Source: an uncultured Spirochaetaceae bacterium
Lineage (GTDB): Bacteria; Spirochaetota; Spirochaetia; Sphaerochaetales; Sphaerochaetaceae
DNA length: 64,000 nucleotides
Reading direction: 5' to 3'
Assembly (NCBI GenBank): GCA_944389505.1
Contig: CALXMP010000001.1
Location: forward strand, 186,001-250,000
How positions within the stretch are numbered: position 1 is the stretch's first letter; each line of letters opens with the position of its first letter. Below, piece by piece: positions 26,401 to 29,162 of this stretch. The notes under the pieces are model-generated. The model was not told the origin of the DNA. It made no database searches and saw only the letters and a program-made list of their open reading frames with translations. A program made the position numbers and the translations under genes.

Positions 26401-26630
26401 ATGGACATCCGAATATCGTGGATTATATAAGGCATCATAAAGCCGATCTTGTGATCAACACCCCGATGGGATCGCACTCAAGGAAGAGTGATGATGATAT
26501 AAGGACGGAGGCTGTAAGGGCACATATCCCATACACAACCACGACAAGTGCCGCGAAAGCCGCTGTCGAGGCAATCCGCTACCTGCAGGAGAACCGCTTC
26601 ATCGTAAGAGAGCTCCCTCAGAGAAGCTGA
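23442..26630 (+). CDS. carB: Carbamoyl-phosphate synthase large subunit
   Basis: A 1062-residue enzyme with the usual duplicated ATP-grasp layout: first half beginning HILVIGSGPIVIGQACEFDYSG, second half with VIILASGPNRIGQGLEFDTCC near residue 545, and an MGS-like allosteric domain in the last 130 residues (LGFHILATKGTARDLF). Each half has its FTLGGMGGS or FVLGGRAMFIAYDD nucleotide motif. It makes carbamoyl phosphate from bicarbonate, ammonia and two ATP. Overlaps carA by 4 bp and overlaps the tail of the convergent gene at 26618 by 13 bp. Confidence 0.98.
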   Translation: MKRNDIHHILVIGSGPIVIGQACEFDYSGNQAVRALKEEGYEVSLINPNPATVMTTPGIADHIFLEPLKKEYIERIFDQVGPDAILSTMGGQTALNLTMELEKEGILEKYGVKVIGASAEAIEKAEDRGIFKDIMTSLGYESAKSGIARSVEEALKVKENIPLPLIIRPSFTLGGMGGSIAETEEDFIPLVEKALSVSPVHEILIEESLIGWREFEMEVMRDRKDNAIIVCSIENIDPMGVHTGDSITIAPIQTLNDEEYQKMRTASIEILRAVGVDCGGSNVQFALSPDHKRMVVIEMNPRVSRSSALASKATGFPIARISAKLAVGYTLDEVQNEITGASVSCFEPALDYVAVKVPRFEMEKFPFEAAALGTQMRSVGEALALGRTALEAINKAFRSAEQKREGIEVLDKSAYDTELLLRSAHPLRFLAAYTAIKDGETDLSKLSSITGYDIYFLSLLMEMKDLEDRIANGPLTDELYKEAKKAGLSDKHIASIAPSASLPAPLVPARHYVDTCAGEFEALTPYCYTSYDEEDEGEGLGKDAVIILASGPNRIGQGLEFDTCCTLSSKAFRKHGRKTIMINSNPETVSTDYNTSDRLYIEPLTAEAVLQIMKKEGTKDVVVQLGGQTPLNMAAELERNGAHIVGTSLESIDRTEDRGLFSALVKELGLRQPENRSASSVADIKKMAAEIGFPVLLRPSFVLGGRAMFIAYDDAGLEEFMKKPEVTVSEEAPVLVDQFLEDAFEYDLDAVSDGESVYIGGILQHIEAAGIHSGDSAAVFPPYKSKPEILDEMRDWTLRLAKKLSVKGLMNIQFAEKDGKLYIIEVNPRGSRTVPFISKSSGVDLVEAAVRVWMGEDLVAQGLVKERGSYAEGRCIMGWAIKEAVFSFDRFQHVDPILGPEMRSTGEVVGYGRTFGEAYAKSQAAASNKLPTSGRVIISVNSKDRKTIAPIARSLQELGFHILATKGTARDLFSEGILADVVLKTQDGHPNIVDYIRHHKADLVINTPMGSHSRKSDDDIRTEAVRAHIPYTTTTSAAKAAVEAIRYLQENRFIVRELPQRS

Positions 26631-27061
26631 TCTGAAAGCCAGCGTGCTTTCTTCCTCAGCAGCTCCCCTGCTTCTGCTGTATCGCAGTCAGGGGAGTATT
26701 TTCTTACAGCATGGACGAAGGGAATGATCCAGGCATCATAGATAACAAGATCGGCCCCTGTTATCCTGCCGTTCTCTTCAGATAGAGGACAATGATACGA
26801 TACATAGAGCACATCATAGCGGAACAGCGATAGCGGATCGGAAAAAGATGGACGATAGAGAATGGAAACAGCGCCGGCTGCCGGCACAAAGCCATCTCTC
26901 CCCTCTATTTCCACCTTCACAAACCATGGAGGAAGATCCGATGGAGTCATCGATGTACGGCTGCATCCATTCAGGTAAAGAAGGTTATTCTCCCCTTCTG
27001 CAATGCAATCCCATCCATTCAATGGGCCAAGTGTATAGAATCCACAGTATTTTCCGTTCAC
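26618..27061 (-). CDS. Conserved-looking hypothetical protein, 147 aa
   Basis: Not recognised. It reads MNGKYCGFYTLGPLNGWDCIAEGENN from GTG 27061; no in-frame ATG exists before the upstream stop. The sequence is soluble, rich in aromatic residues (Trp, Tyr, Phe) with the central LYRPSFSDPLSLFRYDVLYVSYHCPLSEENG, suggesting a compact beta-rich fold. TATCTT ends exactly 6 nt before the GTG and there is no Shine-Dalgarno, consistent with a leaderless mRNA. It converges on carB and their ends overlap by 13 bp. No neighbour suggests a function. Confidence 0.65.
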   Translation of the reverse strand: MNGKYCGFYTLGPLNGWDCIAEGENNLLYLNGCSRTSMTPSDLPPWFVKVEIEGRDGFVPAAGAVSILYRPSFSDPLSLFRYDVLYVSYHCPLSEENGRITGADLVIYDAWIIPFVHAVRKYSPDCDTAEAGELLRKKARWLSDQLL

Positions 27062-27166: not shown

Positions 27167-27333
27167 TTGACTATTAATCCATTTTCTGTACAAGCAATGT
27201 CAAAAACTTCTCAGAATCTTCATATTGTCCTATTCCCACAATCGGAGAAATATGCCATATTATGCATGGCGAGCAAGGATGCAAAACCTCAGATCCCCCC
27301 ACGGACAAACAGCACCTGCTCGCCTTTTCTTTT
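27167..27333 (+). ncRNA. aspS leader with intrinsic terminator (putative attenuator) or small RNA
   Basis: A promoter TTGACT (27167-27172), 16-nt spacer, TACAAG (27189-27194) would start RNA near 27201. A long stem pairs GGCGAGCA (27268-27275) with TGCTCGCC (27317-27324), extended by GG/CC and TGC/GCA past bulged As, then TTTTCTTTT. GGACAAA (27303-27309), in the loop, can instead pair with TTTGTCC (27331-27337), which would trap the 3' arm and U-tract, or with TTGTCC (27225-27230). This is the layout of a transcription attenuator. No T-box motif or Asp-rich leader peptide is seen. Confidence 0.5.
27268..27333 (+). terminator. Rho-independent terminator in aspS leader
   Basis: Stem GGCGAGCA/TGCTCGCC with additional pairs and a large loop, followed by the T-rich run 27325-27333, 42 nt before the aspS start codon. 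Confidence 0.65.
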
Positions 27334-27374
27334 GTCCTTCCAGATGATAGAATACGCCGGAGACGGAGGAAATT

Positions 27375-29162
27375 ATGGAAGAAGCATTCATGCAGCGAAC
27401 CGTAACATGCGGGGATCTCCGCGCTGCGGATGAGGGAAAGTCAGTAATCCTCAACGGATGGGTACACCGTGACAGAAACCATGGCGCACTTCATTTCATC
27501 AATCTGCGCGACAGATATGGTCTAACACAGATCGTTGTCGATGATGATGCGGATGAGAATCTGCAGAAGGCAGCTTCGGAGCTGAAGCTGGAATACTGCA
27601 TTGCTGTCAAGGGAACAGTAAGACGCCGTCCTGATGATATGATCAATCATGATATGCCGACAGGCGAGATCGAGGTGAAGGCTGAGAAGATAGAGATACT
27701 GTCCAAATGCGATGTTCTTCCATTCATGATCGACGAGGAGAACAGTGCTAGAGAGGATCTCAGACTGCGTTACCGCTATCTTGACCTCAGGACGAATGGC
27801 ATGCAGAAGCGCATTGCTCTCCGCCATGAGATCGTGAAGGCAATCAGGGAATATTTCTATAAGACGGATTTCCTCGAGATTGAGACGCCTACGCTCATAA
27901 GAAGCACACCAGAAGGTGCCAGGGACTTCCTTGTCCCGTCCAGGATCTATCCGGGCAAGTTCTTCGCCCTGCCGCAGTCACCGCAGCTCTACAAGCAGCT
28001 TCTGATGGTATCGGGGTTCGACAAGTACTTCCAGATAGCCCGCTGCTACCGCGACGAGGATCCAAGAGGCGATAGACAGCTTGAGTTCACTCAGCTCGAT
28101 ATAGAGATGAGCTATGTGAAGCGCGATGATGTGCTTGCCCTCATGGAGGATCTGTTCGGATCCGTATTCAGATCTGTACTGTCAATCGAGCTTCCAGCTC
28201 ATTTCAGAAGACTCTCGTACCATGATGCGATGAATACATATGGATCGGATAAGCCGGATCTCAGGTTCGGCATCGAAATCCATGATGCAGCATCTTTTGC
28301 TTCTATCTCAACATTCAATGCCTTCACGGAGACACTCAGCGAAGGCGGATATGTGAAGTATATCGTTGCCCCTCACAAGGATGGGTTCGATTATACAAGG
28401 AAGTACCTTGCCGAGCTCGAGAGCGCTGCAAAGATCTACGGAGCGCATGGACTGGCATGGATGAAGGTTGAGAACGGAACCATCTCAGGAGGCGTCTCGA
28501 AATTCTTCCAGGGAAATGAGGCGAAGGTTCTTGAAGAGACGGGAGCAAAGGATGGGGATGTGATTCTTCTCGTCGCCCATAAGGACTGGAAGAAATGCTG
28601 CACAAGCATGGGAGCGGTACGTTCACGCCTCGGTGCTGATCTCGGTGTCATCAAACCAGGATATGAGTTCTGCTGGATCATCGACTTCCCGCTCTTTGAA
28701 TACAATGAGGATGAAGGACACTGGGAAGCTGCCCACCACATGTTCTCGATGCCGCAGGCTGAATACCTTGATACGCTTGAATCAGATCCAGGCTCGGTCA
28801 AGGGTGATCTCTATGACCTCGTCCTTAATGGATACGAACTGGCTTCCGGCTCGATAAGAATCCACGACGTGGAGCTTCAGAAGAGAATCTTCAGAATCTG
28901 CAATATACCAGACGAAGTATCAAAGGAGAGATTCGGATTCCTTCTTGACGCATTCCGCTTCTCACCACCACCGCATGGAGGTATCGCTCCTGGAATCGAC
29001 AGGCTCTGCATGATAATTGCTGGCGAGTCTTCGATCAAAGAGGTCATCGCATTCCCGAAGAACACAGCAGCTCTATCGCCGATGGATGACTGCCCTTCTC
29101 CTGTCGATCCGAAGCAGCTTGAAGAGCTCCATATAAGCATCGTAGAAGACAGCAAGGAGTGA
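27375..29162 (+). CDS. aspS: Aspartyl-tRNA synthetase
   Basis: A 595-residue class II synthetase of the bacterial long type: N-terminal anticodon-binding OB fold (VILNGWVHRDRNHGALHFINLRDRYG), motif 2 FDKYFQIARCYRDEDPRGDRQLEFTQ, the bacterial GAD insertion (about 290-420), and motif 3 GGIAPGIDRLCMIIAG. It charges tRNA-Asp, possibly also tRNA-Asn in bacteria lacking AsnRS. ATG 27375 has GGAGGAAATT upstream. The 170-nt leader carries a terminator hairpin. The next gene begins at GTG overlapping its stop codon. Confidence 0.98.
   Translation: MEEAFMQRTVTCGDLRAADEGKSVILNGWVHRDRNHGALHFINLRDRYGLTQIVVDDDADENLQKAASELKLEYCIAVKGTVRRRPDDMINHDMPTGEIEVKAEKIEILSKCDVLPFMIDEENSAREDLRLRYRYLDLRTNGMQKRIALRHEIVKAIREYFYKTDFLEIETPTLIRSTPEGARDFLVPSRIYPGKFFALPQSPQLYKQLLMVSGFDKYFQIARCYRDEDPRGDRQLEFTQLDIEMSYVKRDDVLALMEDLFGSVFRSVLSIELPAHFRRLSYHDAMNTYGSDKPDLRFGIEIHDAASFASISTFNAFTETLSEGGYVKYIVAPHKDGFDYTRKYLAELESAAKIYGAHGLAWMKVENGTISGGVSKFFQGNEAKVLEETGAKDGDVILLVAHKDWKKCCTSMGAVRSRLGADLGVIKPGYEFCWIIDFPLFEYNEDEGHWEAAHHMFSMPQAEYLDTLESDPGSVKGDLYDLVLNGYELASGSIRIHDVELQKRIFRICNIPDEVSKERFGFLLDAFRFSPPPHGGIAPGIDRLCMIIAGESSIKEVIAFPKNTAALSPMDDCPSPVDPKQLEELHISIVEDSKE

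Follow-up and report, generated by a model that had tools for sequence, protein, structure and literature searches.

The gap between carB and aspS in a group of uncultured gut spirochaetes appears to hold a small-RNA gene. On balance, and with moderate confidence, we read the element as a stand-alone RNA of about 66 nt with its own promoter and terminator, which would act in trans, likely by base-pairing, without Hfq or CsrA. The window, i.e. the whole stretch of 64,000 nucleotides that was analysed, is part of a 2.1-Mb draft genome (G000). Comparisons were made within a genus set of 48 genomes, composed of Candidatus Ornithospirochaeta and uncultured Spirochaetaceae and Spirochaetales relatives present in the genome collection. 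On the 5' side of the element are found carAB and then a 147-aa frame on the reverse strand; on its 3' side lies aspS, an identity proposed by the first-pass annotation and with which NCBIfam agrees. The features of the locus are distributed as follows:

27233..27238, plus strand: -35-like element of the small RNA, TTCCCA (TTnnCA in most homologues), 17 nt 5' of the -10 when 21 leaders are aligned without gaps
27253..27261, plus strand: extended -10-like element of the small RNA, TGC-CATATT, whose distance to the loop hardly varies in 20 of the 21 genomes
27268..27333, plus strand: putative small RNA of ~66 nt, a hairpin with a built-in terminator, its start placed 7 nt past the -10; proposed from its distribution, a covariance model and 21 of 21 folds
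27268..27275, plus strand: 5' arm of the main stem, GGCGAGCA, from the fold, with compensated substitutions in the basal pair and the inner stem
27287..27307, plus strand: invariant loop, CCTCAGATCCCCCCACGGACA, identical in 21 of 21 genomes
27317..27324, plus strand: 3' arm of the main stem, TGCTCGCC, from the fold
27325..27333, plus strand: terminator U-tract, TTTTCTTTT, its first six bases being shared with the aspS -35-like element (TTTTCT/TTTTCC, 17 nt 5' of the aspS -10)
27345..27353, plus strand: extended -10-like element of aspS, TGATAGAAT, with a putative aspS start near 27360
27375..29162, plus strand: aspS, aspartate--tRNA ligase, above the cut-off of NCBIfam NF001750 and TIGR00459; a neighbour, outside the RNA

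The distribution of the element was analyzed with a 22-nt loop pattern, allowing up to 3 mismatches. Of 149 genomes searched, 21 carry it; all of these belong to the genus (48 genomes), and none is among the 101 others. All 21 copies are located upstream of aspS in the carB-aspS gap, where the 17-nt search core ends 66-104 nt before the aspS ATG in 20 genomes and 168 nt before it in G033, which carries an insert. Within the loop, 21 consecutive bases are identical in all 21 aligned copies, and conservation of the spacer around the element is far lower. For comparison, a single one of 189 fourfold-degenerate sites of aspS is invariant among 20 distinct species, and nowhere in the 1788 columns of the aspS alignment do 12 or more consecutive nt stay invariant. 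A covariance model was built from 19 of the 21 copies; G019, almost identical to G000, and G028, whose stem was mis-aligned, were left out. It recovers all 21 copies, including G028 from outside the model at E 1e-4, and its remaining matches are weak. Second matches to the model were fetched from G042, G026, G036 (two), G006 and, one of them, G076, and were discarded, the loop being absent; one on contig C54 of G019, which has the loop, is described below. Other loop matches with 1 mismatch in the genus (15 loci inspected) do not form this type of hairpin and mostly look like genes by eye. A pattern scan of the genome collection returned 26 stretches, of which 20 are spirochaetal; the remaining 6 belong to other phyla and were rejected for want of a matching hairpin.

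No Rfam family matches the element, either in a scan of the window or in a scan of positions 27180-27400: the gathering score was reached in the window by three tRNAs only, and the shorter region gave only two unrelated snoRNA models (E 5.4-7). In the literature on Ornithospirochaeta, on spirochete or C-rich small RNAs and on aspS, the RNA is not described, as judged from titles and abstract openings. The family is apparently undescribed. On the aspS tree, which comprises the 30 genomes of the 48 with a full AspRS, presence of the RNA needs 3 changes; this fits one gain and two losses, one in G018/G025 and the other in G004/G035/G037 around G028.

As the first-pass annotation described, a strong hairpin with arms GGCGAGCA/TGCTCGCC followed by TTTTCTTTT stands before aspS, the U-tract ending 41 nt before the ATG (27375). 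Folded within its natural limits, the 65-nt hairpin has an energy of -20.4 kcal/mol, lower than in any of 200 dinucleotide shuffles, and z is only -1.5 to -1.8 when longer stretches are folded. All 21 homologues fold into the same terminator-like hairpin, with a mean z of -3.4. Our hairpin scan overlooked it because only loops of 3-8 nt were allowed. In the stem alignment 96.8% of the cells are paired, with one pair altered on both sides. The pair at the base of the stem is A-U in 12 of the 19 rows and G-C in 6; for an inner pair, C-G stands in 10 and U-A in 4 of the 19. In G028 the hairpin is retained and its upper part differs; inspection of the G028 fold by eye reveals two more compensated pairs. 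Covariation over the whole structure is modest because the stem itself is conserved. These data bear on a quite different reading, that the locus is a DNA element, i.e. a recombination or replication hairpin, instead of an RNA gene. Such an element would also be single-copy and hairpin-forming with an invariant core; we consider it the least credible of the explanations and very improbable, since the orientation is fixed, with a promoter-like sequence on one side and a U-tract on the other, and since the stem tolerates wobble pairs (A-U to G-U, C-G to U-G).

The promoter-like sequence of the small RNA was defined on leaders anchored without gaps, which give the consensus TTnnCA-17-TGC-NATATT. 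In the -35-like element both T and the C are present in at least 90% of the rows and the final A in at least 70%. TGC-N-ATATT was counted in 20 of the 21 genomes. The deviating leader, that of G028, was positioned manually, and 20 is the fair count because the start pattern contained one alternative written for G028 alone. From this conserved -10 we infer a transcription start 7 nt further on, which coincides with the first base of the stem at 27268, so that an RNA of ~66 nt would be transcribed from its own promoter with its start at the base of the hairpin. The promoter initially proposed, TTGACT-16-TACAAG, is present in 1 of 21 homologous leaders and absent from the output of the consensus promoter scan. 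The suggestion of an independent small RNA, which the first-pass annotation had offered as a second choice, is supported, with another promoter and a size of ~66 nt rather than about 130. Upstream of the -35-like element, many leaders contain CTTCA-type direct repeats spaced ~11 bp apart (27205-27232 in the window, by eye), a sequence arrangement that might resemble a response-regulator site.

A second promoter-like sequence belongs to aspS. The motif TGnTAnnnT occurs in 40 of 45 genus aspS leaders compared to 7.7% of shuffled leaders; the 45 leaders represent the 48 genomes less G022, G027 and G029, which are without an aspS start. In each of the 21 RNA-bearing genomes the aspS promoter-like sequence is placed 3' of the terminator, and close RNA-less relatives retain it. 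Its -35-like TTTTCT is located in the window at 27325-27330, inside the U-tract of the RNA, and a spacer of exactly 17 nt separates TTTTCT or TTTTCC from the aspS -10 in every one of the 21 RNA-bearing genomes as well as in the RNA-less G018, G025 and G004. This fixed spacing in every RNA-bearing leader indicates that the -35-like element of aspS is provided by the U-tract itself, a compact layout in which the U-tract of one transcript would serve the next gene as -35 element. Exceptions to the shared use are G030 and G041, where a further TTTTCC comes from additional nucleotides that follow the terminator.

This overlap raises the question of a cis effect: polymerase stopped at 27325-27333 would cover the aspS -35 and limit initiation, or else readthrough would add aspS transcripts. 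The coincidence of U-tract and -35-like element in most RNA-bearing genomes, and the fact that the element always adjoins aspS, speak for such interference. The gene upstream is carB in 21 of 21 RNA-bearing genomes, so the order is fixed and adjacency to aspS carries no independent functional weight; we dropped that argument. In addition, extra nucleotides separate the RNA from aspS (~20-40 in G030 and G041, ~100 in G033), and interference would not need an invariant loop. We therefore regard it as unlikely. Under the small-RNA reading, aspS would simply be a downstream neighbour on its own promoter, with its -35 embedded in the U-tract.

The first-pass annotation had itself proposed a transcriptional attenuator of aspS, in which GGACAAA (27303-27309) pairs in a mutually exclusive manner with TTTGTCC downstream (27331-27337) or TTGTCC upstream (27225-27230). 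The three segments are indeed present in the window, where GGACAAA and TTTGTCC are able to pair, and a terminator-like hairpin does stand before aspS. Checked across the 21 homologues, the alternative pairings are not kept: 7 of the 21 genomes contain TTTGTCC and 4 contain TTGTCC, and the latter segment sits upstream of the start implied by the conserved promoter. Such lack of conservation is an outcome that the first-pass annotation itself had named as refuting the attenuator. With unconserved pairings, an aspS promoter-like sequence 3' of the terminator in all 21 genomes, and neither a T-box nor any other Rfam match, attenuation by this route is highly improbable. T-box leaders precede aminoacyl-tRNA synthetase genes and end in a terminator, two traits that the element shares. 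It differs from them by the absence of a match to the T-box covariance model of Rfam, in keeping with the annotation's remark that no T-box is visible, and by the conserved aspS -10 downstream of the terminator, which would argue against a T-box riboswitch; that candidate was rejected for want of an Rfam hit. For the calling of attenuators this is a note of caution, as a terminator located 5' of a synthetase gene need not mean a leader.

An own promoter-like sequence, a short predicted RNA and a conserved C-rich terminator loop are found together, at the sequence level. In the mechanism that we propose, the RNA's own promoter would drive a transcript of ~66 nt ended by its own hairpin terminator, which would present a largely unpaired, C-rich loop of 20-30 nt. 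By analogy with known RNAs we infer that this loop would act in trans, most likely by pairing with G-rich stretches around the ribosome-binding sites of at least one mRNA, and that pairing would proceed without Hfq or CsrA. The Hfq profile (PF17209) has no match in the 48 genus genomes, and as a control the same profile responds in 5 of 14 named genomes; CsrA (PF02599) has none in the 21 RNA-bearing genomes, with a control response in 3 of 14. An Hfq-dependent small RNA was rejected on the first result. A CsrA-sequestering RNA was rejected on the second, and also because a single GGA is conserved (one copy in all aligned rows) where several GGA hairpin loops are required. To our knowledge Helicobacter pylori, like this genus, has no detectable hfq. 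Small RNAs acting without Hfq or CsrA are little understood, and the element would add a family of them in uncultured gut spirochaetes, in a genus without Hfq match and in members without CsrA match.

Small RNAs of the RsaA type are longer and contain several hairpins. S. aureus RsaA and other C-rich-motif small RNAs of Firmicutes are thought to hit Shine-Dalgarno sequences with this motif (PMC3961350); the C-rich motif is the point of likeness, and the phylum is another one. In H. pylori RepG, a C/U-rich terminator loop pairs with a G-repeat target in tlpB (PMC8295292). Like the element, RepG is encoded between genes and displays C-rich loop sequence on its terminator hairpin (PMC8295292); it differs by an additional stem-loop, by the C/U-rich character of its loop and by having a known target, whereas the carB-aspS RNA has one hairpin with a mixed, invariant 21-nt loop. 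RepG may serve as the nearest working model, the proposed likeness being one of mode only.

Sites complementary to the loop were searched by patterns, which could miss short seeds. A 20-nt wobble pattern (up to 3 mismatches, 21 genomes) returned the gene itself and scattered sites, none of them shared between genomes. With a 16-nt pattern, for which 10 of the 21 genomes were scanned, non-self matches numbered 23 and control matches 13. Inspection covered 20 of the matches: they lie mostly within coding regions, 3 being without a same-strand frame of 60 codons, and no 5'-UTR site recurs upstream of one gene. For a 15-nt pattern, 18 of the 21 genomes were scanned, and no excess over its control emerged. 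The loop could equally well be a protein-binding site, as an invariance of 21 nt exceeds typical seed length. A stand-alone small RNA whose loop binds a protein or small molecule, i.e. a decoy or cofactor RNA rather than an antisense seed, is accordingly a possibility of some weight, though a minor one. It would account for 21 invariant nucleotides with no conserved complementary site detected, and for the UCC/GGA inner pairing predicted inside the loop; against it, CsrA, the usual protein of hairpin decoys, is without match in 21 of 21 genomes and no candidate protein is known. The invariant 21-nt loop provides a precise sequence for testing.

A second hairpin with the same CTCAGATCCCCCCA...GGA..AAAC loop is present in G019, the closest relative, at positions 4082-4150 of contig C54 (L173). 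It begins at the end of a tRNA-Asp, stops before a tRNA-His, and has a model E of 0.00175 for that genome, ~0.24 such matches being expected by chance over the 139 genomes searched. The contig contains 11 tRNA genes, and its proteins match phage families (SbcC-like, recombinase family, nucleoside triphosphate pyrophosphohydrolase). Given these phage-family proteins and a tRNA-Asp without match in the other 47 genus genomes, C54 is probably a phage or foreign contig. Since ~0.7 exact 14-mer matches are expected by chance in 48 genomes (a rough estimate), the similarity of its loop to that of the host RNA is only suggestive. The SbcC-like protein has no relatives among the viral contigs, on which four loop patterns returned 0, 2, 0 and 0 stretches; the two (L174, L175) were rejected, their fold being unlike the element and their sequence coding by inspection. 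Phage and plasmid records gave no match spanning 80% of the query. A speculative idea, to which we give little credence, is that of a lineage-specific regulator made of a single hairpin and active in host-phage contact, which a phage would mimic or sponge; if true, a class of phage-copied host small RNAs becomes testable.

Some minor observations concern the surroundings of the RNA. The 147-aa frame (26618-27061, minus strand) has no NCBIfam match, and among 50 upstream stretches compared it lies between carB and aspS only in the window genome and its four closest relatives, with 37-88% identity. In G033 (L025), the insert of ~100 bases that separates the RNA from aspS includes a perfect TGATATAAT element. 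In the RNA-less G018 (L007) and G025 (L018), a short conserved motif, TCGTTATTCnACGA, is visible by eye just 5' of aspS, at about the position of the RNA.
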